The notes below the pieces were generated by a model. The model did not search any database and had not been told where the DNA came from. It was given only the letters and a program-made list of their open reading frames with translations. Both the position numbers and the translations under genes were made by a program. Shown piece after piece: positions 18,505-53,415 of a stretch of DNA of 64,000 bases (the stretch's first letter is position 1; every line of letters begins with the position of its first letter). This DNA is from Zygnema cylindricum. Taxonomy: Eukaryota; Streptophyta; Zygnematophyceae; Zygnematales; Zygnemataceae. Location: positions 51,016-115,015 of the forward strand of contig JBBHKE010002967.1 in assembly GCA_037447655.1 (NCBI GenBank), written 5' to 3'.

Positions 18505-18600
18505 CAGTACTACAGTACATTACTGCACTGAACTGTAACTTAATAAGGTAACAACAACCTTGGGCACGTGGCTCATTTTGGGTCCCTTAAGGCCTTTACC

Positions 18601-24608: not shown

Positions 24609-25064
24609 TCACCCGTGGCAAAACCACTGTCCAGCCGGGATAGTGTGCAAAGGTGGAACCAAACACTCCATATGGAATCCTAAATTGCAATAGTCACAAA
24701 GGAGCATTGTTGTTTCTCCATCAGATCGTCGGTATAATAGGCACTCAGTGGCCTTGGTAATTGGTATCCGCCACGGGTCCATGCTGTGGGAAAGATCGGG
24801 TAGATAGCAGGGGGCACAATGTTTCGAATGCTCCCCCAAAGTTCGCGTGTCGGCCCCTTGTAGGCTTAATAATCTATTGGGGTCGATTTTTGTTATCCTC
24901 AAAAATATGAGCTGACACATCCGTGTCAAGTGTATCAAAAGTTTGCCGTCGCAAATAAACGTAATCCCCCACCCGAAAGGGTTTTTGTCGTGGTCGGTAG
25001 CTGCCATTGCGAGTCGTCGCAAACCGTTAAGAGTCTTCGTGTTGGGCAATCTGCAAGTTTTCAA
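24609..25064 (-). pseudogene. Gypsy D C-terminal region with PHD finger
   Basis: Residues 108-151 of this frame look like a C4HC3 PHD finger: C108, (Tyr111 where Cys2 is expected), C123 and C126 (LLCDYCNLGFHMECLVPPLH), H131, C134, then IPAGQWFCHG ending in a TGA at the expected last Cys. PHD fingers read histone H3 tails; in retroelements such readers may steer integration, as chromodomains do in chromoviruses. Two ligand losses, both explicable by one base change, suggest recent decay. The preceding sequence (about 25064-24750) is the integrase C-terminal tail. Confidence 0.7.
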
Positions 25065-25290
25065 AAGCCATGGGCATTTCTTTAGCGAAAAGCAACGCTC
25101 GGTTAGTTAGTTCTTCCAAAAACAGAGAATTAGACATAAGTGGTAGAGGTAAGCTCGCGGCTTTCTGTACATTCCTACCTAGTAGTGGTTTCCGACCAAA
25201 TAACACATAATAAAGGCTGAAATTTGCCATACTGGCCTGTACAGACATGCGATAACCCATGACAATACATCCCAATGATTCATCCCACAC
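25027..25290 (-). pseudogene. Gypsy D integrase C-terminal extension
   Basis: MGYRMSVQASMANFSLYYVLFGRKPLLG corresponds to 'MGYRFSRQASLHSYSPYFILFGRHPILP' of element B and is the usual sequence after the gypsy integrase core ('T..SPF.L.FGR.P.LP'). Joined to the preceding core by a frame change near 25300. Confidence 0.75.
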
Positions 25291-25305
25291 TGTAATCTGT
25301 TTTTC

Positions 25306-25803
25306 TCAGCAATGTTTACGCAAAGCACGCTTAAAGGTTTGTACTGCTCTCTCTGCCAAACCATCTGCTTGAGGATGATCTCGGCTCGTCCGCCGGTGAT
25401 CCATTAACGCCTCGTCCAGCATCTCCTGAAATTCACCGCGGAACTCGGTTCCTTGGTCGGTAAGTACTTCTGCCGGGGCTCCGTATCGGAGTAACACATA
25501 CTCTTTGAAAGCTGCCGTGGTGAGTTTGGCAGTTTTCTGTGAAAGGGCCACAACTTCCACCCATTTGCTGAAATTTTTGATCATAATCATAATGTACTGC
25601 TTGCCCCTTCGAGAAATGGGAAAGGGTCCTGCAAGATCACACGACCACCTGTAAAAGAGACCCCGAATAGGCAAGGGCTGAAGGGAGGTTTGTCGGTTAG
25701 AAAATAAAGTTCTTAGCCGGTCACAGATGCTGCATTCGTGCAACACAGCCGCCACATCAGCCTGCATGCCGGACCACCAATAACATGCCTGTACCAAACT
25801 CAA
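25306..25803 (-). pseudogene. Gypsy D integrase core
   Basis: Integrase zinc-binding end (CYWWSGMQADVAAVLHECSICDR; the upstream histidines lie outside this frame) and DDE core. The catalytic triad is visible: Asp in WSCDLAGPFP, Asp in LTDQGTEF, Glu in ADGLAERAVQTFKRALRKHC. The core is open for 165 codons, making it the best-preserved part of D. The copy as a whole is broken, hence the pseudogene call. Confidence 0.85.
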
Positions 25804-26095
25804 AGTCCGTTTGGTGCCATAGTGTCCAAGGTCAGTACGAATTTGGTTGATAAGTGATAATCGTTCCGTCGGTCGTGGGACATGCCGGTGACTTCCATCT
25901 TAGAGAAGACGAATAAGTGAGCCCCCCATCCATAAGTAACTTTGGGCTCTCTTACGAACACGCTCCTCTTCCATTGGTAAGGTGCCCGCCCGAAAAGACT
26001 GAGTAGATAGGAAAAGAATTAAAGCACTGTCCCGCCACGGATCGTGTTCGGTTTTGTGATATGTAGGTGCGGAAAAACTGTAGATCTGATGCGCT

Positions 26096-26776
26096 TCAGC
26101 CGATAGGGAGGCAACCGTTTCGCCATCCAAAATCCTGTCGTACACCGTTATCATTGGAGTGGGGCAAAGGGTTCATTGAGAGGCCGTCGGCATTCAAACC
26201 GAGGAGCCCCGGTCGATGGATTATTTCCATGTCATATTTCTGCAAAATAAGAGCCCAACGAGCTAATTTGCCGGATAGCTTGTCATTGGTCATGAGCCAA
26301 TGCAATGGTTGATGGTCAGTAAGAAGGGTAAAAGGCTTGCCATAGAGATAATGTCAGAAATGCACAATACCCCAAACTGTGGCATGGCACTCCCCCTCAT
26401 AACTACTGTAATTTGACTCTGCTTGATTGTTTCTCCGACTGGCATAAGCCACCACATATTCCTCACCTGTGAGTTCACGCTGAGTTAGGATGGCTGCAAT
26501 ACCGGGCTTACCAAAGTTCGTCTGTAGGCAAAATGGCAACTTCTGATTTGGGGGACGAAGAATACGAGCGGTGGACAGTGCGTCCTTTAAGCCGTGTAAT
26601 GCCTTGATCTGAGAGGGTCTCCACGTGAACGGGAGTGATTTCTTCAAGAGTTCATTTAATGGAGATGCAACTGTGCAGAAACTAGGAACAAACCGTCGGT
26701 AATAATTGGCTAACCCCAGAAATGCACACAGGCTAATCAAATCAGTTGGGGCCGGTAGTTTACTAATTGCTTCCAC
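26096..26776 (-). pseudogene. Gypsy D RNase H region
   Basis: The frame opens with the RT thumb (LCAFLGLANYYRRFVPSFCT) then RNase H: FCLQTNFGKPGIAAILTQRE, VVAYASRRNNQAESNYSSYE, ECHATVWGI. The first catalytic Asp of the usual 'TDAS' motif is Asn here (QTNF). A second frame from 26305 continues (KLARWALILQKYDMEIIHRP), typical of gypsy RNase H ends (FDIIHRPG type). Confidence 0.8.
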
Positions 26777-27304
26777 TTTGACTTATAGCGGAGAAATTCC
26801 CTGAGATGAGATAAAATGCCCAAGGTATGGGACCCCTTCGGCCCCAAAGTTACATTTGGCAAGATGACATTTAAGTCCCACTTTTTTTTAATTCCTTCTA
26901 CACCCACTCTATATGCAATGCATGTTCCTCTATAGAGGCTGAAGCGATGATTAGATCGTCGATATAGCAACGGGCAAACTACACCCCTCTAAGACTGAGT
27001 CCATGACTTTTTGGAATACTGCCGATGCATTCTTCAGTCCAAAGGGCATAAAAGCCCATTCCCAATGTCCGTCACTACCCCAAAAAGCAGTTTTGTGTCG
27101 ATCTTTTTCCTCTATTTCGATTTGATTAAATCCCTGTCGCAAATCTAGGATGCCAAAATATTTAGCTCCGCCCACGTGATCAAAAATGTCCTCGGCCAAC
27201 GGCATTGGATGTCGGTCCTGGATTATACGTGAATTCAGTTCTCGATAGTCCCCACACATGCGACGTTCTGTAAAATTCCCCTCCACGTTTTTTTTACGGG
27301 GCAT
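26737..27304 (-). pseudogene. Gypsy D reverse transcriptase
   Basis: RT palm sequence: RRMCGDYRELNSRIIQDRHP, YFGILDLRQGFNQIEIEEKD, WAFMPFGLKNASAVFQKVMD. A frame change occurs near 26975; after it the catalytic YIDD is intact (26955-26966, read CYIDDLIIAS). At least one more stop follows (WV*). Family function is reverse transcription of element RNA; this copy cannot give one continuous protein. Confidence 0.85.
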
Positions 27305-27320
27305 GACAGTGGGCGCCGCG

Positions 27321-28377
27321 TGAAACTTTGAGACCTCTATAAGTCCTCAGAGTGGACAGCTTTCAAGAAAACTCTAGGATAACCCTGACCCCTTTGTGTT
27401 ACATCAATAATAAGTGCCACCTGGCAGACAAAAACTCTGACCACCTTCACCCCTTTGAAGGCAAGACTCCCTTGAGTCGATAGCTAAAAGAATCTCTTGA
27501 ATTTGCTCTCCTGAGCAGTAAGTTATGGAGGGTCAAAGTTTACCTTTTGTACAGAAGCTCTATGGGAGAGAGGGTCCTATCTACTAATTTTTTCTAAGTC
27601 CTATCTCTCTCACAGACTTTATCTACTGATGTACGAAGCCAATCAGATTACACTTCCGTACACAAAAGTACAACTGACGGTGTACTCGATGTACGAACAA
27701 TGTACGACATGCCTAAATGTCGACACGTGGTATATCCGGATTTGCTCCCTTAATCCTCGGAGATGTCGCGATCCAATATTATTCTGCCACGTGTCATCCG
27801 ATTGGCAATGACCATAAACCGCCGAAATCCTCTAATGCGATCTGGGCATTCATTCCGGCCGTCTGATTAAATGCACATTTAATCGTAGCCGTAATAAATA
27901 CCTGTGCGGTATTCGTTTCGCTATCCAAACAAATGCGCGGTACTTGCTTCATATCCGTACCGTACTTCGTACTTCTTCATAACTGAACCTATGTATTCCG
28001 TAAGCAGTTGTTGTTAAATGAAATATCCTACATAGTAACGTTTAAATAATTATCAGACCACATAGCACGTATCATTAGTTCTAGACCTAACACATAAGGT
28101 TAGTGTCTACCTGGTGTCTGCCGGCCGGCATGTACCAGGATCAAATCCTGGATGCATCACTAATTCTTTTAGTAAATAAACTACCATTAAATAAATCAAC
28201 TAATTCATTTCCCGTAAACCTCTGATAGCTTAGGTAGCCATGGCTCTAGCTTTCTCTCCAATTTCTTAGTGACTGCGACAAGTGTGGGAGTTGGAGAGAG
28301 AAGTTAGAGATAGACTGCCTCGGCTTCTTTCTATTTAGACGTAGAAAATACTTAAAACAGAACCATCAATTTCTACA
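27321..28377 (-). repeat. Copia-type LTR1 (3' LTR of A)
   Basis: Plus-strand ends TGAAACTTTG...TTTCTACA. Contains six GTAC cores within 27631-27705 next to a CCAAT-like motif, an ATTCTGCCACGTGTCATCC block, a second GTAC group near 27955-27975, and the plus-oriented tRNA-like/SINE-like segment from 28084 to the end. On the minus strand it starts TGTAGAAATT directly after the PPT. Confidence 0.9.
28084..28160 (+). other. tRNA-like segment inside LTR1
   Basis: Box A-like start (CCTAACACATAAGGTTAGTG) and B-box-like GGATCAAATCCTGG, about 75 nt, antisense to the element's genes. Equivalent segments occur at 33489-33563 (LTR2), 39277-39355 (LTR3), 52116-52193 (LTR4) and 60832-60906 (LTR5). A functional tRNA is not supported. 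Confidence 0.55.
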
Positions 28378-28390: not shown

Positions 28391-28630
28391 CTAGTCAATC
28401 TTTAATTTTTAGACCTCACTTCTCCTTGCAGAAAATCAGCTTAGAGGAAGGCACAGATTTGGTCATCATATCTGCTACCATCTCGCTATCTGGTCGGTAC
28501 TCTAAACTGATTATTTTGTTTTCTACTTTCTCTCTAACAAACCTTAGTCTAATGTCCATGCGTTTGGCTTTAAAATGATGTTTAAGATTGGCAGAAATGC
28601 GATTGCTGCCTGATTATCACAATAAATTTT

Positions 28631-29068: not shown

Positions 29069-29113
29069 GAACTTCTGTTCTTCAGGAGATAATTCCTCTT
29101 CTAAGACTATGAC

Positions 29114-30664: not shown

Positions 30665-30700
30665 ACTTTTATCACTCTCACTTAGAGTTCTATTTAACCT

Positions 30701-31618: not shown

Positions 31619-32622
31619 TCCACCTTAACACATTTATGCCTTCGTGGAATTCCGACCTCGTTTTTTGCCTCCAACTCCTCATCCAATAAGAGCTCATCGT
31701 CCTTGTCCTCGGATTTTGCCTCATGTACCTGGGTCACAAGGGCCTTTTTCTTTCCTCTTGGGGTGCCATTAGTCTGCCCCTCTTTTAACCGAAGCTCGAT
31801 AAGCTTAGTGCATTCTGCCATATAGTGCCCCCGTTTCTTACAAAAATAACATAAACCTTTGGGAGCCTTTGGTCCGAACTCGACAGTCTGATTTTTCTGC
31901 TCCCTCCCTCCATAGTTTCTGGCCGGTTTTCGTGAATCCTTGTTCCTCCAATCGGTCGTAGTTGCCAGGGCTTGCCCACTCTTTCCTCCCCTTTGGATCT
32001 CAATCGTATTCTCCCGAACGAGAATCATCCCTACCACCGAGTTCCATATCCACCTTGAGTCCGAAGGGTCCTGCACATGGTTGACTATGTTCTCGAACTC
32101 ATTTGGTAACTTCATCGGTAAACAGTTAACCTTTTCTTTTTCACTAAAAACTTTTCCCGCACTCTCTAGCTCCATGAAGAGTGTAGCAAGCTCATTGCAA
32201 AAATCCAACATCTTCCCCCCTTTGTATACATACTCCTTAACTTTCTGATCAGCCAACTGTTGTTGCTCAATCGTACCACTTCGGTACATGTCTATGAGAG
32301 CCATCCAAAGATCGGATGCCCTTTCTACTTGCAAATGAGGACATGCAAGCCCTTGAGTAAGATGGCGGAGGATGAAGTGCTTTGCCGCCATATTGATGAA
32401 TTTCCAGGTATCAGTATCATTCTCCTCGTTCCTCGAAATAGGTGACATGAATGCTGAACCATTTGCTATTGGTGTGGTTGTCTCCTTCTCTTTTTTTTTG
32501 TCCACCACCTTTCCTTCCTTTGTCTCCTCCGTTGAAGATGGATCTGGTTTTGTTGTGAATCTGCTTCCTCCAAACCCTGGAGGGATTCCAAAACTTGATG
32601 GACGCCCCACTCGTCCACTCAC
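31615..32622 (-). CDS. Copia A gag
   Basis: 335-codon open frame with a UBN2-type gag core (WKFINMAAKHFILRHLTQGL, QVERASDLWMALIDMYRSGT, LPNEFENIVNHVQDP) and a CCHC knuckle CYFCKKRGHYMAEC near residue 258. It forms the particle shell and binds element RNA. It ends at a TGA one frame away from protease; in typical copia elements gag and pol are one frame, so a one-base indel is likely. The N-terminus may lie further upstream (about 32690), where a frame change interrupts it. Confidence 0.85.
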   Translation of the reverse strand: MSGRVGRPSSFGIPPGFGGSRFTTKPDPSSTEETKEGKVVDKKKEKETTTPIANGSAFMSPISRNEENDTDTWKFINMAAKHFILRHLTQGLACPHLQVERASDLWMALIDMYRSGTIEQQQLADQKVKEYVYKGGKMLDFCNELATLFMELESAGKVFSEKEKVNCLPMKLPNEFENIVNHVQDPSDSRWIWNSVVGMILVRENTIEIQRGGKSGQALATTTDWRNKDSRKPARNYGGREQKNQTVEFGPKAPKGLCYFCKKRGHYMAECTKLIELRLKEGQTNGTPRGKKKALVTQVHEAKSEDKDDELLLDEELEAKNEVGIPRRHKCVKVD

Positions 32623-32713
32623 TATCCCCCAAAACCTTTTCTCGCATAGAGCTCATGTCATCATACTTTCCCAATATATGAAGCGAGTTCCATTAAAGAT
32701 GGGTACCCTAGAG

Positions 32714-32728
32714 GGTGGGCCCATAACC
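32714..32728 (-). promoter_or_regulatory. Copia A primer binding site, half-tRNA-iMet type
   Basis: The plus strand reads GGTGGGCCCATAACC, identical to the anticodon-arm segment of plant initiator Met tRNA, so the element RNA carries its complement directly after the 5' LTR. This is the internal-fragment primer mode known for Drosophila copia and yeast Ty5, not the 3'-CCA-end mode. No spacer between LTR end (32729) and PBS. Confidence 0.85.
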
Positions 32729-33783
32729 TGAAACTCTGAGACCTTTGTAAGTCCTCAGAGTGGACAGCTTTCAAGAAGCCTCTAGGATAACCCCCCTTTG
32801 TGTTACAGCAATAATAACTGCCACCTTGGCAAACAAAAACTCTGATCATATTCACCCATTTGAAGGCAAGACTTCCTTGAGTCGATAGCAAAAAGAATCT
32901 TTGAATTTGCTCTCCTGAGCAGTAAGTTATGGAGGGTCAAAGTTTACCTTTTGTACAAAAGCTCTATGGGAGAGAGGGTCCTATCTACTAATTTTTTCTA
33001 AGTCCTATCTCTCTCACAGACTTTATCTACTGATGTACGAAGCCAATAAGATTACACTTCCGTACACAAAAGTACAGTTGCCGGTGTACTTTATGTACGA
33101 ACAATGTACGACATGCCTGAATGTCGACACGTGGTATATCCGGATTTGCTCCCTTAATCCTCGGAGATGCCGCGATCCAATATTATTCTACCACGTGTCA
33201 TCCGATGTGGCAATGACCATAAACTGTCGAAATCCTCTTCCGTGATCTCGGCATTCATTCCGGCCGTCTGATTAAATGCACATTTAATCGTAGCCGTAAT
33301 AAATACCCGCGCGGTATTCGTTTCGCTATCGAAACAAATGCGCGGTACTTGCTTCATATCCGTACCGTACTTCGTACTTCTTCATAACTAAACCTATAAA
33401 TTCCGTAAGCAGTTGTTGTTAAATAAAATATCCTACATAGTAACGTTTAAATAATCATCAGACCACATAGCACGTATCATTAGTTCTAGACCTAACGGAT
33501 AAAGTTACTGTCTACCTGGTGTCTGCCGGCCGGCAAGTACCAGGATCAAATCTTGGATGCATCACTAATTCTTTTAGTAAATAAACTACCATTAAATAAA
33601 TTAACTAATTCATTTCCCGTAAACCTCTGGATACCTTTAGTAGCCATGGCTCTAGCTTCCTCTCCAATTTCTTAGTGACTGCGACAAGTGTGGGAGTTGG
33701 AGAGAGAAGTTAGAGATAGACTGCCTCGGCTTCTTTCTATTTAGACCTAGAAAATACTTCAAAGAGAACCATCGATTTTTACA
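32729..33783 (-). repeat. Copia-type LTR2 (5' LTR of A, 3' LTR of B)
   Basis: TGAAACTCTG...TTTTTACA, 1,055 bp, very close to LTR1 with scattered differences. Has the GTAC cluster (33032-33107) and tRNA-like segment (33489-33563). PBS of A lies on its low side, and the PPT plus RNase H tail of B on its high side, so it is shared by two tandem elements. Confidence 0.9.
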
Positions 33784-34130
33784 CTCCCCTTATTTTATAG
33801 TCAATCTTTAATTTTTAGACCACACTTCTCCCTGCAAAAAATTAGCTTAGGGGAAGGCACAGGTTTGGTCTTCATATTTGCTACCATCTCGCTATCTGGT
33901 CTGTACTCTAAACTGATTATTTTGTTTTCAACTTTCTCTCTAACAAAGCTGAGTTTAATGTCCATGTGTTTGGCTTCAAATGATGTTTAGGATTGGCAGA
34001 AATAGCGATTGCTGCCTGATTATCACAATAAATTTTCTGCACACCACTCTTAACTTGACCCACATCAATTCTTTTACAGCAGAGTAAGAGGCCATATACT
34101 CAGCCTCCATGGTGGATTGAGCAAGAACCT
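33784..34130 (-). pseudogene. Copia RNase H tail of chimera B
   Basis: Matches the 3' end of copia pol in C (39562-39930): PPT, then the end of pol ('KPVPSPKLIFCREKCGLKLKI' region), HFEAKHMDIKL-like and MEAEYMASYSAVKEL-like sequence in reverse. It has small deletions relative to C. It ends at the joint near 34131 inside 'AQSTMEAEYM'. Confidence 0.8.
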
Positions 34131-34583
34131 CACATTGGCCACATTGATCTGATTTTCCTTGATCCTCCGTCCATCCATCCCTTCAAGTGTCAAGACCCCC
34201 TTATTGGAGACTTCCACTACTTTCAAAATCACCCTCCCCGCTGAAATGTCAAGAGTGTCCTTTTTCTGTTGCATCCGATACACAAAATCCCCGGGCAGAA
34301 ATCGCCGTTGCCGCGGGACAAAATTCCCATTCCGGCGTTGCGAATACCGGAGTTGATCTTGGAGCTGAGTTGCTTGTAAATATCCCATGGCCAGAGGCAT
34401 TTCCCGGTGAAATACCTTGGCCCTGTCGGGAATCAATTTTTCAACCGTTCCCTTGCTGTCCATCTCCGGAAGGACCACTGCTTGGGCCGAGGTAGCGCCG
34501 GGGAGGATGGGATGCCGTCCGAACAAAATGAAATATGGGCTGTAGGAGTGGAGGGATGCTTGCCGGCTGAATCGGTACCCCAT
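34131..34583 (-). pseudogene. Gypsy B integrase C-terminal extension
   Basis: MGYRFSRQASLHSYSPYFIL, FGRHPILPGATSAQAVVLPE and a post-core beta domain (RQRRFLPGDFVYRMQQKKDT, ISAGRVILKVVEVSNKGVLT), as in gypsy integrases ('F..GD.V'). The frame then runs into copia sequence, so any PHD or chromodomain is lost at the joint. Confidence 0.8.
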
Positions 34584-34589
34584 GGCGAT

Positions 34590-35309
34590 CTAAGGCACCC
34601 TTCTATCCCACTCTCCTAGATCCTCTTCCACAGCATATTTACGCAGTGACCGCTTCACTGTCTGCATGCACCTTTCGGCCAAACCGTCGGCTTGTGGGTG
34701 GTCTCGGCTGGTCAGCCGGTGGTCTATGAGGCACAATTCCAACAAGTTGGAGAATTCTCCCGCAAATTCGCAGCCGTGGTCGGTCATAAATTCGGTTGGG
34801 GACCCAAATTGGGAAAGCACTTTCTACAAGAATGCGTCTGCAATCGCCTTGGACTCCTTCCTGGGTAAGACCACCAATTCGATCCACTTGGAAAAATGCT
34901 CTATCATTACCAATACAAAGCGGTTCCCTCGTCTGCTAGTGGGGAGAGGACCCAGAAGATCTAGAGACCACCGATAAAACATTCCCCTGATGGGAAGGGA
35001 ATGAAGCTGAGAACCTCCCTTTTTGTCGAAAGCTGCTTTGACTCGGTCACAGAAGAAACACGTCTGCACAATCCGATTGACTTGGGTCTGCAACCCGTGC
35101 CACCAATACGACCCTGCGACCAAGGAGGTGGTCTGTTTCTGCCCAAAATGGCCACACTGCTGGTGAAGGTTAAAAATAACAGTCTCCTTGTCGGCCAGGG
35201 GAGGAACCACTTTCCTCGTCCCATCAGCCCACTTCCGGATTAAGATGCCCCTTTCCCTCTCGTATGCCGCCATTCGTGTTTCCACCTGAGATAACTGCAC
35301 TCTTGACAA
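34590..35309 (-). pseudogene. Gypsy B integrase zinc finger and DDE core
   Basis: Zinc-binding HHCC: HQQCGHFGQKQTTSLVAGSY, then CFFCDRVK. Core: Asp in WSLDLLGPLPTSRRGN, a TAG interrupting at ADAFL*KVLSQFG (34824-34822), Asp in MTDHGCEFAGEF, Glu in ADGLAERCMQTVKRSLRK. The triad is present but the frame is broken once. Confidence 0.85.
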
Positions 35310-35312
35310 ATG

Positions 35313-36007
35313 CTAAAAAGGGTATCCTTGTTGGACAGATTCGAGAGCCTCTAGATCGTTCCAAATATCTTTCCGTCCAGCCCCTATTGGCGCCTGCCCC
35401 TCCACGTCTGCAGAGAAAGTTGAGATTTCCCCCAGAGATTGAGGAAGCCAAATAAAGGCAGAGGAAGCTCGAATGAGTCCCAAATTGATTTTCAGGATCC
35501 TCATCATGGCGGGCCCCGGTGGAATCTCTAGTGGAAGGGTCAGGATTTCTGCTAAGTCCATCGACATTCCCATGAATCTCTCCAGCCCGTTGGATTATGT
35601 CGAAGTCATATTCCCGCATTATTAATACCCACTTGGCGAGCTTGCCAGTGAGCTTGCTGTTCTCCATGATCCACTTGAGGGGTTGGTGATCCGTGATCAG
35701 AGTGAAATGGACTCCGTATAGGTATGGTCTGAAGTGTTGGATGGCCTATACCGCCGCCAGTAAATCCCTGTGATAGCTGTTGTAATTCCCCTCCGCTCGG
35801 TTATTTCTCCTACTAGCGTAAGCTACCACATATTCGGCCCCAGCATCATCCAATTGGGCTAAAACAGCCCCCAATCCAAACCGGCTCCAATCAGTGTAAA
35901 GGAGGAATGGTCTTTGGTGATCAGGCATTCGGAGCACAAGGTGTTGCTTCAAGGAATCCTTGAGGAACTGGAAGGCAATTTGTTGCTCCTCTGTCCACTG
36001 CCACTCC
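35313..36007 (-). pseudogene. Gypsy B RNase H
   Basis: FLLYTDWSRFGLGAVLAQLD, EYVVAYASRRNNRAEGNYNS and YHRDLLAAV (frame 35952-35746), then NSKLTGKLAKWVLIMREYDF and DIIQRAGEIHGNVDGLSRNP (35667 on). TD.S and the second acidic region are present. Several frame changes. Confidence 0.8.
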
Positions 36008-36967
36008 TAGTCTTTCCGCAGCAACTGGTTCAGAGGGTGAGCGTGGCTGCTAAATTCAAGGATGAATCTCCGATAATAGTTAGCCAGGCCTAAAAATGTG
36101 CGGAGTGTAGAGACGTCCTGAGGATGGGGTAGGGCATCAAGGGCTGCAACTTTGACCATATGGGGACCCACTGTCCCGGGTGTAACTTCGTGTCTCAAGT
36201 AAATAATTTTGTGCACCCCCAAAATTCCCTTGCCTGGGTGACATTTCAAGCTCGCTACTTGGAAGAGCTCGGAGTACAATCAGTATGTGCTCCAGGTGTT
36301 CATCGAAGGTCTTTGAGAAGATAATAACATCGTTGATATAATAGCGTGCACAGTCAATCTTCCGGAGTGCCTCGTCCATGGCACGTTGGAATTTGGCTGG
36401 CGCATTCTTTAATCCGAATGGCATGTAGAGCCATTCATACAACCTGGACCATTCCCAAAAAGCTGTCCTTTCCCGGTGCTTTGGCTCCATCGCGATCTAG
36501 TGGAACCCATTCTTCATGTCTAGTGTGGAGTAAATGGTGGCCCCGGCCAGCGAGTCAAAAATCTCTTCCGGGGTAGTCATTCGGTATCGGTCAGGTACAG
36601 TTGCCGTGTTAAGCATCTGGTAATCTCCACACATCCGAAAGTCTACTGTTTTCCCAGATGAGTCCTTCTTGGGTGGGAGAACGGTTGGAGACGCAAATCC
36701 ATGGAGTCTAGTACTTTCTTGAATCAATCCTGCTTCTACCATAGTTTGTACCTTTGCCGTGATGAACTCTTTTTCCTTGAAACTGACAGGGTACTGCTTC
36801 TGCCAAATAGTAGACGTCTCGTCTATTAAATCTATTCGAAAAGGGGTTCATTTGTAGATGCCTACGTCGGTATCTGACCAAGAGAACACTTGTTTGTTCT
36901 TCTCCAACAGGTCGGAGAGTTGGGCCTTTTGCTGAGGGTCCAACTGCTCTCCTAAGGTCCAATCCAT
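36007..36967 (-). pseudogene. Gypsy B reverse transcriptase, YIND variant
   Basis: RT frame opens at ATG 36967, overlapping the end of the DNMT-linker frame in the -1 register, as in C. Motifs: FASPTVLPPKKDSSGKTVDF, RMCGDYQMLNTATVPDRYRM, YSTLDMKNGFH, LYEWLYMPFGLKNAPAKFQR. The catalytic box reads YINDVIIFS (36329-36340) where YIDD is expected, so the first catalytic Asp is Asn. Stops occur at about 36849 and near 36495. Inactive copy. Confidence 0.85.
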
Positions 36968-37263: not shown

Positions 37264-38430
37264 TGATTGCGGAGATTGTAGGCTAGAGAAGGCCAGAGAA
37301 CGTTTTATCACCCAAGTTATTGTATTTAGATCCATGCTTTGTCCGAGTAGGCTGCACCGTTGGAGGTCTGAAATACCTGGTGCCGCCGTACTGGCAGGTT
37401 GGAATCCCATGGCTTGTTCTCGTTCTTTCACCATTGGTGTTGTCCAAACTCCACTTTTGCTGTCAAATATCATTTCCGCCGCTCCCTTTCGATACGCATG
37501 GCTGTTGGGGAAGGAAACCAATGTTGGCAGTGCTCGCCGTGGTGCTCTTGGTTGGTTGCACTAGCACAACGGAGGACGATCAGCCTTAGTTATCGGAGTG
37601 GCCATCCGTCCTGGCCCTAAAATTTGTTGTAGGGTAATCTGGGGATCTGTTTGGTGGTTTTGTAAGAGCTGGTTTAGGACTGACTGAGGTATCAAATTGG
37701 TAAAGTATGCCTGAACTCTGTGAGCCCTCAATCCCAGTTGCGCCGCATTGAAAACAAGTGGAGCTCCCAGAATCTGCTTGACTTTATTCCTGCTATTTGC
37801 GACTTGTTTCCTGTTATCATCTCCTGGGTGGACATTCTCCAAAACGTACCCCACTGGTTGGTCTTGGGACTGTTGCAGCCAGGAAAGTAATTTGATCATC
37901 TAGAAGAAGGTTCGACTTCCGCTGTCCTGATGTCCCTCGCCTTTCCCGGCCAGAGAGTATCCTTGACATGGCCATCATGCAATCACCAAATCCACGCGCT
38001 CCAGCATAGCAAGATGTGGCTTTAGGATATGGTCTATATTTTGCGGAACACTTCGGTGAGATCTGTAGATGGCGGATACCGGAAGTTGCTGGGGATACAA
38101 TTGGTGGAGTTCTTGTAGTTGGTATTCAGTGACGGCCCGAGCATCCGGTGAAATTTCCACGGCCACATATGACTCCACTTTGTTCCAAGCTTTCAAAATA
38201 GCTTCGAGGTCCGAGCTAATTCCAGAAAATAGGGATAATATCCGGAGTCCAGAATCCTAGATAGATAATGACACCACTTGTCGATTGAATTTTTGATTTT
38301 TGGGCGGAACTTCCGAAGATTCTAACCGAGGTTCTTTTTCCTTCACAAAAATAGCTGTCAAGGATTTGTCCACTCCTGGACGAAGTTTTGCTATTTGTAA
38401 TAATCTGTTATAGTATCCTTCTTCCCACTG
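37264..38430 (-). pseudogene. Retroelement C5-cytosine DNA methyltransferase, copy B
   Basis: Same protein as in C. Motif I GLRILSLFSG (about 38257), motif IV with the catalytic Cys in WPCQGYSLAG (about 37968-37939), motif VI VLENVHPGD, motif VIII AQLGLRAHRVQAYF, and motif IX/X REQAMGFQP and LLGQSMDLNTITWV (37314-37356). PCQ is the canonical motif IV form, so this copy probably preserves the older sequence there. Stops: TAG before the motif I block, TGA at A*WPC, TAG after RTFF, and the TAG at 37563-37561 shared with C. Enzyme family: S-adenosylmethionine-dependent methylation of cytosine in DNA. Confidence 0.82.
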
Positions 38431-38513
38431 CTTGGAAATAGGGAATTGCTATATTATCTCTACGATATCGGTGGCGCTGGCGAGCAGTTCCATGGGTGTG
38501 TGAGTGGCATAGA

Positions 38514-39561
38514 TGAAACTCTGAGACCTCCATAAGTCCTCAGAGTGGACAGCTTCCAAGAAGCCTCTAGGATAATCCTGACCCCTTTGTGTTTAAGCAA
38601 AAATAACTGCCACCCTGGCAGACAAAAACTCTGACCAACTTCACCCCTGTGAAGACAAGACTCCCCTGAGTCGATAGCAAAAAGAATCTCTGAATTTGCT
38701 CCCCTGAGCAGTAAGTTATGGAGGGTCAAAGTTGACCTTTTGTACAGAAGCTCTCTGGGAGAGAGGGTCCTATCTTCTAATTTTTCTAAGTCCTATCTCT
38801 CTCACAAACTCTATCTACTGATGTACGGAACCAATCAGAATTGAGTTCCGTACGCAAAAGTACAGCTGCCGGTGTACTTTATGTACGGACATTGTACGAC
38901 ATGGCCAAAATGTCGACACATGTCAAATCCGGATTCGGTGCCATAATCTCCGGAGATTCCACAATCCAACAGAATTTCGCCACGTGTCATCCGATGTGGC
39001 GATGGCCACAAACCGCCGAAATTCTCCTCCGCGATCTCGGCGCTAATCTCCGCCGTCCGATTAAATTCGGCTTTAATCGTAGCCGTAATAAATACATGCG
39101 CGGTATTTGTTTCATTTACGAAACAAATGCGCGGTACTGATTTGTGTCCGTACCGTAAGTCGTACATTATTTATTACTGGATCTATGTATCCCGTAATTC
39201 ATTTCAGTTAAATGATTTATCGCTTGTATACATATTTAAATAAATATCAAACTATATTCTATGTAACACTACTGCTAGACTTAACGGCTAAGGCTACCGG
39301 CTAATTCCTATCTGCCGGCCGGTAGGTACATGGATCAAATCCTGCCGCCGACACATACCTTTTAAATAAATAATTAAATCCTAACATAAAATTCCCGTAA
39401 ACCTCAGGATAGCCAAGGTAGCCATGGCTCTAGCTTCCTCTCCAATTTCTCAGTGACTGCGACAAGTTTGAGAGTTGGAGAGAGAAGTTAGAGATAGACT
39501 GCCTCGACTTCTATATTTCTTTTCAAACCTAGAAAATACTAATAAACCATTAGTTTCTACA
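38514..39561 (-). repeat. Copia-type LTR3 (3' LTR of C, 5' side of B)
   Basis: TGAAACTCTG...GTTTCTACA, 1,048 bp. More diverged from LTR1/LTR2 than those are from each other. GTAC cluster 38822-38897 (six cores), tRNA-like segment 39277-39355. Low side joins truncated gypsy sequence of B with no PBS; high side has the copia PPT of C. Confidence 0.88.
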
Positions 39562-39574
39562 CTCCCCTTATTTT

Positions 39575-41040
39575 CTAGTCAATCTTTAATTTCAGACCAC
39601 ACTTCTCCCTGCAGAAAATTAGCTTAGGGGAAGGCACAGGTTTGGTCATCATATCTGCTACCATCTCACTATCTGGTCTGTACTCTAAACTGATTATTTT
39701 GTTTTCTACTTTCTCTCTAACAAAGCTGAGTCTGATGTCCATGTGTTTGGCTTTAAAATGGTGTTTAGGATTGGCAGAAATAGCGATTGCTGCCTGATTA
39801 TCACAAAATATTTTCTGCACACCACTCTTAAGGTGACCAAGCTCACCAAGCAAAGACTTGACCCACATCAATTCTTTTACAGCAGAGCAAGAGGCCATAT
39901 ACTCAGCCTCCATGGTGGACTGAGCAATAACCTTTTGCTGTTTGCTACTCCAACAGCAAGCCCCATCACCCACATATAATACATATCCAGAAGTACATCT
40001 CCTCATCGGAGCATCACCATAACTGGCATCACTCCAAGTAGTGATGTCAATATTCTCCCCACCCAAATGCAACCATAGATCTCTAGTTCCTACCAAGTAT
40101 CTAAGGACTCTCTTAGCTGCCTCCCAATCCTTCTTAGTGGGAGCATTTAGACTTCTACTCAGCACTCCTACAGCTGCAGCTAAATCCGGCCGGGTACAAT
40201 TCATAAAATAGATTAGACTTCCCACTACTTGCCTGTAAGGAATAGTCTGCATGAACTTCTGTTCATCAGGAGACAATTCCTCGTCTAAGACTATGACTCC
40301 TTCTTCCTCACTCCCCTCACTTCCCTTCTTCAACTCCATTGGAGTTGTACAACTATTAGCTTTATCCATTTGAAATTTTTCAAGCATGTTTCCTATTGCT
40401 TCCTTTTGAGTCAATCTTATAATTTTCCTTTTTCGGTCTCTCTCTACTTGAATTCCCAAAATATATTTTGCTTCCCCCATATCCTTCATTTCAAATCTCC
40501 CCTTAAGATCGGTTTTCAGTTTATTAATTTTTTCCATTGATTTACTTAAAACAAGCAAATCATCAACATAAATTGCAATAAATATAAAACCTTCCTCATC
40601 TTCGAAAACATAGATTGAGTGATCTGAGCTGATCCGAATATATCCTAGACCGGTAAGAAACTCATCAAGCTTCTTATTCCACTGTCGGGGCGCCTGTTTC
40701 AAACCATAAAGAGATTTAATCAGCCGGCATACCTTACTCTCCTCTCCTTCTTCCACAAACCCTTCGGGTTGTCGCATGAAGATCTCCTCTTCTAATTCTC
40801 CATGCAAAAAGGCTGTTTTGATGTCCATCTGGTGCACTTCCATGTCTTCCGCCGCTGCTAAACTGAGAAGTATGCGGACGGAGGGAAATCTGACCACCGG
40901 GGCAAAGGTTTCCTCGTAGTCAATTCCTTCCTTTTGTGTAAATCCCTTTGCCACTAATCTGGCCTTGTAAAGCTCGATTGTGTTATCTGGGTTCAGTTTC
41001 AGTTTGAAAACCCACTTACAACCGATTGGTTTTCGGTTAG
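39575..41040 (-). CDS. Copia RT-RNase H in chimera C, intact frame
   Basis: About 488 uninterrupted codons starting within NRKPIGCKWVFKLKLNPDNT, through EGIDYEETFAPVVRFPSVRI, MDIKTAFLHGELEEEIFMRQ, catalytic AIYVDDLLVLSKS, RNase H TWSDASYGDAPMRRCTSGYV and STMEAEYMASCSAVKELMWV, to KPVPSPKLIFCREKCGLKLK. All catalytic residues visible are standard. The same region in A has several stops, so this copy is younger or was under selection longer. It has no own gag or integrase and its N-terminal part was cut by the gypsy joint. Confidence 0.88.
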
Positions 41041-41598
41041 GTAGAGCCATTCATACAACCTAGACCCTGCCCAAAAAGCTGTCCTTTCCCGGTGCTTTGG
41101 CTCCATCGCGATCTGGTGGAACCCATTCTTCATGTCTAGTGTGGAGTAAATGGTGGCCCCGGCCAACGAGTCAAAAATCTCTTCTGGGGTAGGCATTGGG
41201 TATCGGTCAGGTACAGTTGACGTGTTAAGCATCCGGTAATCTCCACACATCCGAAAGTCTACCGTTTTCCCAGATGAGTCCTTCTTGGGTGGGAGAACGG
41301 TTGGAGACGCAAATCCATGGAGTCCGGTACTTTCCTGCACCAATCCTGCTTCTACCAGAGTTTGTACCTTTGCCGTGATGAACTCCTTTTCCTTGAAACT
41401 GAGAGGGTACTGCTTCTGCCAAACAGTAGACGTCTCGTCTATTAAATCGATTCGGAAAGGGGTTCCTTTGTAGATGCCTACGTCGGTATCTGACCAGAAG
41501 AACACTTGTTTGTTCTTCTCTAACAGGTCGGAGAGCTGGGACTTTTGTTGAGGGTCTAAATGCTCCCCTAAGGTCCAATCCATCTTTCCGGGTTCCAC
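41041..41598 (-). pseudogene. Gypsy RT N-terminal half in chimera C
   Basis: MDWTLGEHLDPQQKSQLSDL, FFWSDTDVGIYKGTPFRIDL, ETSTVWQKQYPLSFKEKEFI, FASPTVLPPKKDSSGKTVDF, YPMPTPEEIFDSLAGATIYS and LDMKNGFHQIAMEPKHRERT, no stops. Cut just after RLYEWLY, before the catalytic box. It overlaps the end of the DNMT-linker frame by about 30 nt in the -1 register. Confidence 0.88.
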
Positions 41599-41858
41599 CG
41601 CTGCCCAGGCCTCCGGGGTCTACCCCTGCGGGAGGTATCGAATTCTATCTCTACCTGCGGGTCTACCTCATCTCCTCCCGTTAGAATGCTGCTGCTAACA
41701 ACTTCCGCTAAGTTATCCCTTTCCGAGCCTCCTCTCCCCCTCACTGAGGAATCCCTTAATTTCGGTGAAATGCTGGGACTGGAAATTTTTGATGATAAAA
41801 ATTGTTTTCTTGCCTCCCCCCCCTCCTCAAGCTGCAAGTAGGCCTGCACCGCTAACAA
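41568..41858 (-). pseudogene. Linker between DNMT and RT, chimera C
   Basis: Charged, Ser-rich linker (AYLQLEEGGEARKQFLSSKI, ERDNLAEVVSSSILTGGDEV) in the DNMT frame, ending WIGP*. The B copy has the same linker (37240-36952) ending at the same TAG. No domain recognised. Confidence 0.6.
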
Positions 41859-41882: not shown

Positions 41883-43072
41883 CCTCGATTGCGGAGACAG
41901 TTAGCTAGAGCTGGCCAGAGAATGTTTTATCACCCAAGTTATTGCATTTAGATCCATGCTTTGTCCGAGTAGGCTGCACGGCTGGAGGTCTGAAATACCT
42001 GGTGCCGCCGTACTGGCAGGTTGGAATCCCATGGCTTGTTCTCATTCTTTCATCGTTGGCGTTGTCCAAACTCCACTTTTGCTGTCAAATATCATTCCGA
42101 CAGCTCCCTTTCGATAGGCGTGGCTGTTGGGGAAGGAAACCAATGTTGGCACAGCTCGCCGTGGTGCTCCTGGTTGGTTGCACTAGAAGAACGGAGGACG
42201 ATCAACCTTAGTTACCGGAATGGCCATCCGTCCTGGCCCTAAAATTTGTTGTAGGGTAATCTGGGGATCTGTTCAGTGGTTCTGTAAGAGCTGGTTCAGG
42301 CCTGACTGAGGTATCAAATTCTTCCAGTATGCCCGAACTCTGTGAGCCCTGGATCCTAGTTGCGCCGCATCAAAAACAAGTGGAGCTCCTAGAATCTGCT
42401 TGACTTTATTCCAGCTATTTGCGACTTGTTTCCTTTTATAATCTCCCGGGTGGACATTCTCTAAATCGTACCCCACTGGTTGGCCTTGAAATTGTTGCAG
42501 CCAGGAAAGTAATTTGATCATCTGGAAGAAGGTTTGACTTCTGCTGTCCTGATGTCCCTTGCCTTTCCCGGCTAGAGAGTATCTTTCACATGGCCATCCT
42601 GCAATCACCAAATCCACGCACTCCAGCATAGCGAGATGTGGCTTCAGGATATGATCTATATTTTGCGGAACACTTCGGTGAGATCTGCAGATGGCGGATA
42701 CCGGAATTTGCTGGGGATACAATTGGTGGAGTTGTTGTAGTCGGTATTCACTGATGGCCCAAGCATCCGGTGAAATTTCCACGGCCACATATGACTCCAC
42801 TTTGTGCCCAGCTTTCAAGATAGCTTCGAGGTCCGAGCTAATTCCAGAAAATAGGGATAATATCCGGAGTCCAGAATCTGGGATAGATAATGACACCACT
42901 TGTCGATTGAATTTTTGATTTTTGGGCGGAACTTCCGAAGATTCCAACCGAGGTTCTTTTTCCTTCACAAAAAAAGTTGCTAAGGATTTGTCCACTTCCT
43001 GCCGAAGTTTTGTTATTTGTAATAATCTGTTCTGGTATCCTTCTTCCCACCGCTTTGAAATAGGGAATTGCT
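41883..43072 (-). pseudogene. Retroelement C5-cytosine DNA methyltransferase, copy C
   Basis: Open from directly after the TAG that ends the protease frame (43073-43071). Counting from 42995: motif I LRILSLFSGISSDLEAI at residues 43-59, acidic AVEIS at 71-75, motif IV GWPCERYSLAGKG at 133-145 with catalytic Cys136, motif VI DLENV at 178-182, motif VIII AQLGSRAHRVRAYW at 211-224. A TGA follows at residue 241 (CAA in B). Motif IX/X REQAMGF / EQAMGFQP and LLGQSMDLNAITW lie further on (to about 41935) past the shared TAG at 42185-42183. The order and the spacing between VIII and X resemble DNMT3/DRM-type catalytic domains more than DNMT1. Such a protein could methylate element cDNA; that is inference. 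Confidence 0.85.
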
Positions 43073-43880
43073 ATATTATGTCTGCGATATCGGTGGCGCT
43101 GGCGAGCAGTTCCGTGGGTGTGTGAGTGGCATAGACGGGATAACATCCATTAACGGGAGCATTATCTTTCCCCCTATTCCATAGATCCAGGGGAACCACC
43201 ACCTTGACTCCTTCTGGATCTTCAGGATCCCTAACGGTAAACTGCTCGTTCCACACACTTAATCCTATATTCACCCTTGTCCAGGTGGCCATTCCCAATA
43301 AAATCTCAAACTGCTTACCTTCCACCACTAGAAAGGGAAGCTGATTTCAAACCTTTTGACGTGTGTCGTCGGCGAACTCTATTAACATAGCTTTGATTAT
43401 TCCGTGTACCGGTTGGCTCCCACTGCTAACAGTACTTAGACAGATGTCACTGGGGAAGATTTCCGGTCGGAGTGCTTCCGGCATTTGCTGTAGAGCCGAT
43501 GTGGTGATTAGATTTGGGGGTGCCCCTGTGTTGACCACTGCGTCTTGATACCCGCCGTATCCGTTGAGTTTGAAATTCCCCGTCCGGTTGAGAATTAGAG
43601 CCACAGATAACGTTTTGTAGTCCCTATCCATCATAGGTGTCTTTGGGTCGGTTGACCAAAAAACGGATCTGGCATGATCGGCCCGGTGTTTCTCCCCTCT
43701 TAAAATGATTTCCTCTCCGAGGGCGTGGATGAGAACTTCCTCCGGCAAGTTATGAGAAGAGGCCAATGTTTTCACGTAAGTAAGAGCGTAAGGCATTAGA
43801 TGCCTTACTAACATCACTACTGGTTTGGAGGAAGGAGGTTGAATTTTTGGCGACGAAATGGAGGAATCTGTTAGTTCCAC
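43071..43880 (-). pseudogene. Gypsy C aspartic protease region
   Basis: Retropepsin-like: SVALILNRTGNFKLNGYGGY, DAVVNTGAPPNLITTSALQQ, then PVHGIIKAMLIEFADDT and, after an in-frame TGA near 43346, FEILLGMATWTRVNIGL. The expected catalytic D-T/S-G-A reads NTGA, so Asp is Asn in this copy. The frame ends ASATDIADII followed by TAG, and DNMT continues in the same frame. Confidence 0.75.
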
Positions 43881-44897: not shown

Positions 44898-45269
44898 TTA
44901 TTCGTCTGACCCTCCTCCTTGCTTCTTATTTTGCTGCCTCTTTGTCCTATCAGCTCTCTTCTTCTCCCATTCTTTTTGCTTAACAGCGAATTCTGGTTTG
45001 AGCTTCCAGGGGCATCGCTTCCATCCATGACCTGTTTGTTGACAGTTTAAACAGTTATAGAGGAAGACACGGTCATCGGCCCCCATGGCAGGTTCGGATC
45101 CGCTATCCACCACCTGTTTCCCCTTGAGCTTGTGCCAGGCTAAGAGTTCAACCGACTCTTCATTTTCGGGAGTCATTTCTCCGGCAAATCCTGCAAAGTT
45201 CCCTCGGGTTTTTCCGGTTACCGCTTTTTCCTGGACTTCTCGGTGGACAAAGTGATCATAAAGCTTCAT
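44898..45269 (-). CDS. Gypsy C nucleocapsid, CCHC zinc knuckle
   Basis: Contains LYNCLNCQQTGHGWKRCPWK, a C-x2-C-x4-H-x4-C knuckle, flanked by basic Lys/Arg stretches (VKQKEWEKKRADRTKRQQNK). It binds element RNA. It overlaps the end of the gag frame by four bases in the -1 register. Similarity of the overlap to gag sequence in the other frame suggests a one-base indel in a formerly continuous gag. Confidence 0.75.
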   Translation of the reverse strand: MKLYDHFVHREVQEKAVTGKTRGNFAGFAGEMTPENEESVELLAWHKLKGKQVVDSGSEPAMGADDRVFLYNCLNCQQTGHGWKRCPWKLKPEFAVKQKEWEKKRADRTKRQQNKKQGGGSDE

Positions 45270-51365: not shown

Positions 51366-52396
51366 TGCAACTCTGAGACCTCTATAGGACCTCAGAGTAG
51401 GCAGCTCACACGAAACCTCTAGAATAACCCTGACCCCTTTATGTTTCAGCAAGAATAACAGCCACCCTGGCAAACAAAAACTCTCACCACCTTTACCCTT
51501 GTAAAGGAAAGACTCCTTTGAGTGGATAGCAAAAAGAATCTCTGAATTTGCTCCCCTGAGCAGTAAGTTATGAACGGTCAAAGTTGACCTTTTTGTACAG
51601 CAGCTCTCTGGGCGAGAAGGTCCAGTCTATCAAATTTTCTAAGTCTTATCTCTCTCTAAAACTCTATCTACTGAAGTACGGCACCAATCATAATAGTGTA
51701 TCGTACATAAAGGTACACGTGCCGTTGTAATTTATGTACGGCCATTGTACGACATGGCCAAAAGTCGACACATGTCATTTTTGGATTCGTTCCTGGAATC
51801 CCTAACATGCCGTAATCCAATGTGATTGTGCCACGTGGCGATTGATGTGACGTCGACCGCAAACCGCCAAAAACCTATTGCGTGATCTCGTTATGTTTCG
51901 TGGCCGTCCGACCAAGCCGGATTACAATCGTGGCCGTCATAAATACTTGCGCAATATTTGTTTCGCATTTGAAACAAAATGCGCGGTATCCGTTTCGGAT
52001 GTGCCGTACGCCGTACATTACAAACTGTATCTATGTCTAAATATCCCGTTGAATGAAGATAGCCGATGTGTAAACATTTAAATAACTATCATACGCTATA
52101 TCATACATCCCTGGTTTAGACTAGTTGGCTAAAGCTACCGGTTACTAGCTACTTTGACGGACAGTAGGTTTGGTTCAAATCTTGGGCCCGTCAAATCTTT
52201 TTTGGTAAAATCTACTAACCTAACATATATCCCCGTCGGGATAGCATAGGTGGCCATGGCTCTACCTCCCTCTCCAACTTTCAGTGACTACGACAAGTGT
52301 GGGAGCTGGAGAGAAGAGTTAGAGGCAGACTGCCTCTACTTCTTTTCTGCATTTTACAAAACCTAGAAAACACTAAAATAACCTTTAATTTCTACA
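51366..52396 (-). repeat. Copia-type LTR4, solitary
   Basis: TGCAACTCTG...TTTCTACA, 1,031 bp, the most diverged of the long LTRs. Keeps the GTAC cluster (51677-51749, five cores) and tRNA-like segment (52116-52193). No PBS on its low side and no PPT on its high side, so it is solitary or a remnant. Its SINE-like end forms one arm terminus of the palindrome at 52309-53152. It cuts into a TACACC-type end at 51229. Confidence 0.8.
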
Positions 52397-53152
52397 GTGA
52401 CCAGCAAAAATGGAATATTCGCTGTACGATTATATACATTAGTATATGTATCCGTACAAAATAATGGAAATCGTACGCCGTCGCGAATCTAAAATATCCG
52501 TACATGCTATACTAATTTACGTGCCAAACTAATCACGTTAATTTTAGCGCACGTTCCTATGCATGTGCGCATGATTCAATTCATTTTTTGTAAATTTTCA
52601 CTTGAAAAGGTACAGTTATGTACGGTTTGACATCGGCCGTACACCACACTATTTCAATTTTATCGTTATTAGTGTCAAAGTCACTAATTTGGGTTCTTAA
52701 AATTTTGATTTTTTTCATCAAATATGATACATGATTTTAATTTTTCCTTGACGTTAATTAAGGTACTGTACAAAATAGCGTAAAGCCCGAAAGTACACTA
52801 AAATTGAAATAGTGTGGTGTACGGTCGATGTCACACCGTACATAGCTGTACCTTTTCAAGTGAAAATTTACAAAAAATGAATTAAATCATGCGCGCATGC
52901 ATCGGAACGTGCGCTAAAAAAAACGTGATTTGTCTGACACATAAATTACTATAGCATGTACGGATATTTTAGATTCGCGACAGCGTAGGATTTCCAATAT
53001 TTTGTACGGATACATATATTAATATATATAATCGTATGGCGAATTTTCCATTTTTGCTGTTCCCTGTAGAAATTAAAGGTTATTTTAGTGTTTTCTAGGT
53101 TTTGTAAAATGCAGAAAAGAAGTAGAGGCAGTCTGCCTCTAACTCTTCTCTC
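52309..53152. repeat. 844-bp imperfect palindrome
   Basis: The left arm starts GAGAGAAGAGTTAGAGGCAG and the right arm ends with its inverse (CTGCCTCTAACTCTTCTCTC). Arms pair for roughly 370 bp: LTR end (52309-52396 with 53066-53152), then the TACGATTATATACATTAGTA region, GCACGTTCC, and TACACCACACTATTTCAATT near the centre; the loop lies around 52680-52780. A transcript would fold into a long hairpin. Confidence 0.88.
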
Positions 53153-53195: not shown

Positions 53196-53415
53196 TACAC
53201 CGTGTATCGCTATTAGTGTTAATGTTTTTTTCCCACTTAAAACATATTTTCTCCATCCACACATGTCAGATTGTTGATCTGACGGTTGCGATTGAAAGTT
53301 AAGATGCTTAACTTCCAAATGGCAGTGTCAAATTGAAAATCGGACAACTGTGTACGGAGAAAATATGTTTTAAGTGGCGGATAAAATATTAACGCTAATA
53401 GCGATAGACAATGTA
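53196..53415. mobile_element. MITE, TACACC-type TIR
   Basis: Left end TACACCGTGTATCGCTATTA, right end TAATAGCGATAGACAATGTA. Subterminal inverted blocks CTTAAAACATATTTTCTCC and its inverse. 220 bp, non-coding. Confidence 0.7.

Follow-up and report, generated by a model that had tools for sequence, protein, structure and literature searches.

The window analysed here, 64,000 nucleotides of contig JBBHKE010002967.1 from the alga Zygnema cylindricum, carries on its minus strand, from position 46753 down to 34130, parts of two copies of a Ty3/gypsy retrotransposon (copies A and B), each with a predicted C5-cytosine DNA methyltransferase (MT) domain, and a copia piece between them (Table 1). Copy B retains a probable Gag, a zinc knuckle, the protease (PR) region, the MT and the start of the reverse transcriptase (RT). 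Copy A retains the MT, RT, RNase H and integrase (IN), and the order is that of a Ty3/gypsy pol (RT, RNase H, DDE integrase with an H2C2 zinc finger). In a self-comparison of the window the copies were 92.5% alike over 2096 columns, with two indel events. Copy A has nothing upstream of 38513, where the end of a copia long terminal repeat (LTR) joins it, and in copy B the remainder of RT and IN is missing, the cut end of the copia piece being joined to it at about 41041. We take A and B to be remains of two gypsy copies, because the end of A coincides with a seemingly natural copia LTR end and because the divergence of RT bears the mark of selection described below; an ancient duplication or gene conversion would also be possible. 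The exact meeting of A and B at the copia piece had suggested that a single 2.1-kb unit was duplicated in tandem; this idea was set aside on the same evidence.

The MT was identified from a 240-residue open reading frame (ORF) at 42273-42995, which matches PF00145 (DNA_methylase) with an E-value of 3.2e-10 and 40.4 bits (cut-off 22), the significant match to a C5-methyltransferase profile that an earlier note on this DNA had called for. Its best PDB matches are DNMT3C, DNMT3A and DNMT3B (best E 5.2e-9), and in a profile search the scores were 85 bits for DNMT3A, 48 for 4onj (which we take to be a plant DRM), 40 for HhaI, 36 for DRM2 and at best 24 for DNMT2-type enzymes. Neither DNMT1 nor CMT was among the 57 chain sequences found at E<=0.01 in the profile search, an absence that proves nothing by itself; in the VIA list DNMT1 appears only below DNMT3 and CMT was not seen, which for CMT again proves nothing. 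The alignment gives the motif order I-IV-VI-VIII-IX-X, not rearranged, and the marks of DNMT3 are present (the catalytic PC..S, ENV and the RxR of motif VIII), with Q in place of the second R of motif VIII in copy A and E in place of the Q after the catalytic Cys in copy B. The domain is closer to DNMT3 than to DRM, DNMT1, DNMT2 or bacterial methyltransferases. The DRM class was rejected, the rearranged order in which VI-X precede I-V being absent. By sequence class, the window MT is a DNMT3-type C5-cytosine methyltransferase, for which methylation of DNA is predicted.

Most of what the earlier note had seen at this locus is confirmed. The motifs it named lie on the minus strand at the expected places in both copies, and its spans, 37264-38430 and 41883-43072, do hold the MT; the domain proper is narrower, and the spans take in linker. 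Of its DNMT3- or DRM-like class, the DNMT3 likeness stands and the DRM likeness falls with the ordinary motif order. Its placement of the MT between PR and RT of a Ty3/gypsy element is borne out by the domain matches and the relatives described below, which show the predicted enzyme as a module beside gypsy pol.

Upstream of the MT, the sole profile match of the Gag ORF, SCAN, lies below the cut-off (E 0.08). Residues 148-257 of P0003, a related protein, match 45056-44658 (24%, E 1.6e-6), in support of the zinc-knuckle region. In the protease of copy B the active-site D reads N (VVNTGA); 43347-43880 had no Pfam match, and the protease match of P0003 itself (625-713) is below the Pfam cut-off. 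The self-comparison revealed no pair of gypsy LTRs (both ends of copy A are cut), and patterns of an initiator-tRNA primer binding site (PBS) were no commoner in the window than by chance (3 found, 4.2 expected).

Table 1. Features of the gypsy copies and adjoining elements, in positions of the window.
Feature	Positions	Strand	Basis or remark
Probable Gag ORF, copy B, 495 aa	45266..46753	-	named by place; frame differs from following stretch
Gag zinc-knuckle region (CLNCQQTGHGWKRC), copy B	44898..45269	-	sequence; same frame as PR and MT
Aspartic protease region, copy B, approximate bounds	43250..43880	-	tblastn of P0003 597-1174 over 43631-41928
TAG between PR and MT, copy B, candidate readthrough stop common to A	43071..43073	-	context TAG-CAATTC
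DNMT3-type MT domain with motifs I-X, copy B	41913..42869	-	PF00145, PDB DNMT3, homologues, alignment
TAG within MT, copy B, common to A	42183..42185	-	context TAG-TGCAAC, not leaky type
RT start, copy B, frame shifted from MT	41038..41616	-	RVT_1 E 2.3e-7; tblastn 68% to P0002
Copia fragment between A and B, with its 3' LTR and the 3' portion of pol	38514..41045	-	88% to 27321-29861; RVT_2 E 2.7e-80
TAG between PR and MT, copy A	38449..38451	-	context TAG-CAATTC
DNMT3-type MT domain, copy A	37291..38247	-	tblastn P0002 30-387 over 38256-37186, 45%; alignment
TAG within MT, copy A, common to B	37561..37563	-	
RT, copy A	36218..36964	-	65% to P0002 476-724; RVT_1 E 1.1e-11 for 36137-36490
RT end and RNase H, copy A	35359..36255	-	62% to P0002 712-1010
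Integrase, copy A, interrupted by copia sequence at about 34130	34137..35462	-	62% to P0002 975-1416; Integrase_H2C2 E 1.8e-13
Second, more distant gypsy element, RT-RNaseH-IN-PHD	24618..27346	-	tblastn; PHD PF00628 E 1.2e-8; trees

Relatives and the two seats of the methyltransferase

A protein search with the 240-residue ORF alone gave no match at E<=1e-3. With residues 772-1115 of the copy B polyprotein (P0001, X at stops) as the query, 29 proteins were found (P0002-P0030; E 4e-95 to 7e-32), mostly gypsy polyproteins, with MTs 30-48% identical to that of the window. A profile search, which scored only the 7997 best-sharing candidates, added 33 more (P0031-P0063). MT-bearing gypsy proteins thus occur elsewhere, which removes the refutation foreseen in the earlier note, an MT absent from all other gypsy copies. 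The chance insertion of an unrelated methyltransferase gene into one dead gypsy copy, in whose favour stands the decay of both copies and nothing beyond it, is refuted by these relatives and has practically no probability left: the MT has the same place in A and B and lies before RT in relatives, most of the 29 proteins have gypsy pol domains, and unbroken polyproteins exist elsewhere.

Layouts were read piece by piece and sorted into type I, with the MT before RT, and type II, with the MT between RNase H and IN. In 27 of the 62 proteins the MT was seen to have RNase H immediately before it and/or IN immediately after it. Both neighbours were visible in 19 of these (17 RT-RH-MT-IN-PHD, one RH-MT-IN-PHD, one RT-RH-MT-IN; RH, RNase H) and one neighbour in eight (four MT-IN-PHD, three MT-IN, one RH-MT). 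The MT precedes RT in five (P0002, P0003, P0025, P0058 and P0059), among them P0025, KFL_009030040 of Klebsormidium nitens, with the layout MT-RT-RNaseH-IN. The MT alone was seen in the other 30, including P0004 and P0006, which have a weak protease match below the cut-off before the MT, and P0061 and P0062, which have no Pfam domain. A PHD finger (PF00628) is present in 22 of the 29 proteins of the first set according to precomputed Pfam annotation, and in six of the ten scanned here (not in P0002, P0003, P0019 or P0025); P0027 carries a Chromo domain as well as PHD.

No covered row of the retroelement MTs departs from the catalytic Cys and Glu, and these MTs have the consensus motifs GSxAHRxRxYWTNL, TAAPGxS and LLGQxxDxN, without counterpart in DNMT3A. 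E replaces the usual P before the catalytic Cys in eight of 60 covered MTs (P0007, P0016, P0027, P0035, P0038, P0052, P0053 and P0062), and P0014 has S there. The relatives suggest a larger family in which the place of the predicted enzyme in the element has changed and its active site has been kept. P0030, one of the 30 proteins in which the MT alone was seen, has a related MT (36%) with RNase_H (PF00075), and no gypsy integrase was found in it. It may be a non-LTR element, in which case the module may have passed from one class of retroelement to another.

A scan of prokaryote genomes gave 12 loci and one close relative, L081 (46% over most of the domain), on a 9285-base contig filed under a metagenome-assembled genome (MAG) of a Synechococcales cyanobacterium. 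Its content makes it very probably a eukaryotic contaminant. Because its ends have 127 identical bases in common, we interpret it as a circle of 9158 bases, the form in which assemblers would return an element whose two LTRs are identical. L081 encodes Gag with zinc-knuckle motifs, PR and MT, then a single TAG followed by CAATCA, then RT, RNase H, IN and PHD in the same frame, and it has a 2-kb non-coding stretch, as expected of collapsed LTRs. An initiator-tRNA PBS pattern was searched for in L081 and not found. P0033, from an Obscuribacterales MAG and named as a DNA cytosine methyltransferase, is like L081 a relative in a bacterial MAG and a probable eukaryotic contamination. Scans of viral contigs with the window MT, the window RT, P0021 and P0012 led nowhere, and a scan with the query A2 gave matches of only 24-45% (best 80 of 239 loci).

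Trees were built from 60 MT, 24 RT-RNaseH and 31 IN rows, short rows being dropped by length cut-offs for each tree. In all three, type II forms one side of a supported branch (MT 97/93, RT-RNaseH 97/99, IN 100/98) and the window copies pair with P0002 (99/85, 100/99 and 100/100). In the RT (97/99) and IN (100/98) trees P0025 of K. nitens stands on the same side of the type I/II branch as the window copies, and its placement with the window in the MT tree is weak (82/34). The second gypsy element of the window groups with type I; a copia LTR cuts off its upstream part at 27321, hiding any MT that it may have had. Over 22 elements MT distances correlated with those of RT-RNaseH (0.79) and IN (0.76), with none of 5000 permutations as high, and in type II alone the correlations were 0.79 and 0.83 (P0059 was left out). 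The MT tree was also rooted with seven outgroup rows (DNMT3A and DNMT3C segments and five MTs of viral contigs), leaving out the long-branched P0030 and P0061. All 54 retroelement-type MTs stand together against the outgroup (100/99) and type II is a clade (99/99), with type I basal and unresolved (approximately unbiased (AU) test p 0.42 for type I as one clade, a test that includes MT-only fragments labelled by their place in the tree). Such labelling is circular, and the count of layout changes was therefore repeated with seen layouts only, again without P0030 and P0061: one change suffices over eight type I and 25 type II rows, with 21 rows unlabelled and with P0004 and P0006 taken as type I by their protease match below the cut-off and their likeness to L081.

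Since the MT, RT-RNaseH and IN trees split alike and MT and RT distances correlate, we infer, with good support from these trees, one ancestral capture of the MT, which was then kept with RT and IN, and one move between the PR/RT and RNaseH/IN junctions. If related host DNMT3 genes had been captured twice, once at each junction, layouts that are cleanly separated in all trees would equally be expected, and no algal host DNMT3 serves as an outgroup; we regard this history as doubtful, given the 100/99 branch that sets the 54 retroelement MTs apart from DNMT3A, DNMT3C and the five viral-contig MTs, the consensus motifs they share and DNMT3A lacks, and a root that leaves type I basal and unresolved.

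Stop codons, decay and candidate readthrough

The MT frame of each window copy has three stops, two private to that copy and one TAG common to both, and the linker has one TAG common to A and B and one further stop in A. The private stops are of all three kinds, and their number across linker, MT and the stretch behind it, six, agrees with neutral decay (4.8 in simulation, sd 2.1, for 116 changes). Between A and B, w was 0.57 over 319 MT codons (95% interval 0.35-1.04) and 0.24 over 181 RT codons (0.10-0.52), the latter a mark of selection. A reassigned UAG was considered as the cause of the common stops; the private stops, as noted, include all three kinds. Five long ORFs end in TAA, TGA, TAG, TGA and TAG, which is weak evidence on UAG reassignment, as exon ORFs may enter introns. 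Both copies have decayed and both MT genes are broken, so they should methylate nothing now, and the earlier suggestion that the element could methylate its own cDNA or locus, whether as self-silencing or as counter-defence, is not supported for the copies as present here.

Readthrough at UAG-CARYYA is of the tobamovirus type. The CARYYA signal is reported to direct readthrough (PMC3441728). Residues 1-1115 of P0001, from the zinc-knuckle end of Gag through the MT, contain 13 in-frame stops, and only the common linker stop between PR and MT comes within one base of this signal (UAG-CAAUUC, five of six bases, in both A and B). With 13 stops inspected a chance match is not rare, so the window signal is a candidate. 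The candidate is strengthened by being common to A and B and by an exact match, UAG-CAAUCA, at the MT/RT border of L081, across which the frame continues unchanged; of the 190 TAGs of L081 two match exactly, including this one. In both window copies the frame of RT differs from that of the MT, and the RT ATG overlaps the MT-frame stop (ATGGATTGGACCTTAG).

Proposed function of the methyltransferase

In the textbook view, hosts use cytosine methylation as a weapon against transposons; elements with a de novo MT of their own turn the question round. The likeliest function would be de novo methylation of the element's own cDNA, as de Mendoza et al. proposed for DIRS elements (PMC5890265). The MT would, as a less certain step, enter the virus-like particle as part of the Gag-Pol products; its occurrence at two places, both of them pol enzyme junctions within the presumed Gag-Pol products, fits a module needed in the particle and not at a fixed point of the chain. 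There, or in the pre-integration complex, it would methylate fresh, unmethylated double-stranded cDNA, and new copies would reach the nucleus already with host-like CG marks, which may let them be taken for host DNA or protect them against nucleases or deaminases. The dose of MT would depend on the leaky UAG: in the window type the MT stands behind the stop and would be made at the level of Pol, and in the L081 type it stands before the stop and would be made at the level of Gag. By reading histone H3 tails, the PHD finger that many members have behind IN would direct integration.

Several observations weigh against this proposal or parts of it. A and B have in common a stop within the MT, yet RT bears the mark of selection, the MT more weakly so, with overlapping w intervals; copies without a full MT may have kept moving or persisted for a while, perhaps helped in trans. 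The P-to-E change before the catalytic Cys affects eight of 60 rows, and the MT is less conserved than RT-RNaseH (mean distance in type II 0.59 against 0.49). The RT tree puts P0025 weakly (83/72) next to type II, and the trees hold no algal host DNMT3, so a single capture is not proved. As many as 44 of the 1593 TAGs on both strands of the window (2.8%) come as close to CARYYA as the linker stop, which may therefore be a chance match. The gypsy MT of K. nitens gave no methylation in yeast, a test that its authors call inconclusive (PMC5890265).

The last result and the P-to-E change also fit a reading in which the MT does not methylate DNA in the life of the element and acts on RNA (for instance genomic RNA or primer tRNA) or as a structural module. 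We consider this improbable: in sequence and model the MT comes closest to DNMT3, which acts on DNA, and stands well apart from DNMT2-type tRNA enzymes, and the catalytic Cys and Glu do not vary among the covered rows. The MT might instead act after integration, guided by PHD, on its own locus (self-silencing, sparing the host) or on host chromatin (re-patterning). The PHD fingers in most of the first set of relatives, in L081 and in the second window gypsy agree with this, silent K. nitens copies bear CHG and CHH methylation, and effects at the insertion site and a slower, host-sparing transposition are among the options of the 2018 authors (PMC5890265). However, host enzymes alone could methylate silent copies, and the first substrate of a pol-borne enzyme that is made and packaged with the particle would be cDNA; action after integration is therefore, in our view, unlikely.

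Taken whole, the reading of an MT-bearing gypsy element with a single capture and a move, an MT that methylates the element's own cDNA in the particle, a dose set by a leaky UAG and targeting by PHD has a probability of about 0.5. We put forward only tentatively its extended form, in which a large environmental gypsy clade would descend from one DNMT3 capture, the module having moved intact between two junctions, and its members would have a writer of their own beside a PHD reader, with cDNA methylated in the particle at a dose set by the leaky UAG. The relatives comprise two layouts, numerous unbroken sequences and, in L081, a complete element of 9.2 kb, and so allow direct tests of cDNA methylation before integration, of dose, and of whether PHD couples methylation with the choice of target.

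Elsewhere in the window, a copia element lies at 27321-33783 on the minus strand, with LTRs at 27321-28370 and 32729-33783 that differ by 5.2% substitutions and 5 indels. The pol end of another copia (33783-34130, minus strand) seems to share an LTR with it, and 27321-34130 seems to be an array of copia sequence, tandem or recombined, by which gypsy copy A is also cut. Exons of an ATG2-like host gene (VPS13/ATG2 family) lie at 5403-15035 on the minus strand, with PF13329 above the cut-off for 5403-6926 and below it for 13431-15035. A 354-base inverted repeat at 52309-53152 (93.5% alike, about 136 bases between the arms) is adjoined by a further imperfect palindrome at 53196-53415. A direct duplication of about 1.3 kb, in pieces of 80-90% identity, spans 17813-22341 (17813-19902 against 21073-22341), and low-complexity sequence at 2372-2741, which reads (GR)n or (SP)n, has a reverse-complement echo at 12069-12239.

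Comparison with known systems

The precedent in charophytes and dinoflagellates to which the earlier note appealed is supported by de Mendoza et al. 2018, whose report is based on one charophyte and one dinoflagellate genus (PMC5890265). They describe from K. nitens LTR gypsy elements with a non-rearranged Dnmt3 in pol (KnitGypsy-Dnmt3), a kind to which the window copies belong, and call the repeats of the K. nitens element DIRS-like. P0025, which is probably one of these copies, falls on the side of the window copies in the RT and IN trees. The window elements differ in their host, in MT sequence (37-39% identity over about 250 residues), in the candidate UAG readthrough between PR and MT and in the frame change from MT to RT. 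Beyond the parts of the 2018 main text considered here, in which PHD is not mentioned, are the two MT seats, the PHD after IN and an intact element, L081, with a leaky-type stop. A search of open-licence PMC papers, mostly by titles and the starts of abstracts, brought up no study of gypsy elements with the MT at two seats or with PHD fingers, and for the clade nothing beyond PMC5890265 and its citation in PMC12344493, which states that some DNMT3s lie in retrotransposons and names Copia and DIRS.

The SymbioDIRS-Dnmt3 and SymbioLINE-Dnmt elements of Symbiodinium are likewise retroelements with a Dnmt, and SymbioDIRS-Dnmt3 has it in Pol, also in two domain orders, with MTs that methylate CG de novo in yeast (PMC5890265). 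They belong to other classes (tyrosine recombinase and LINE), and their authors hold the captures to be independent. Membership of the window elements in DIRS-Dnmt3 was rejected, as rve and H2C2 domains were found and not a tyrosine recombinase. The catalytic domains of DNMT3A, DNMT3B and DNMT3C are nearest to the window MT in solved fold and in sequence and have the same motif order. The retroelement MTs differ from them in PCQ instead of PCN at motif IV and in the RxRxYWTNL and LLGQxxDxN consensus; no ADD or PWWP was seen with them, and a separate PHD stands behind IN in many members.

Chromoviruses are gypsy elements with a chromodomain behind the integrase. MT-bearing gypsy elements likewise have a histone-reader module in that place, and P0027 carries both kinds; unlike chromoviruses, most scanned type II members have PHD as the reader, together with an MT. 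A Ginger1 transposase, which has a gypsy-like integrase, is reported to contain PHD fingers (PMC2836005), and the PHD finger of PMC3286476 belongs to a host gene beside an element.
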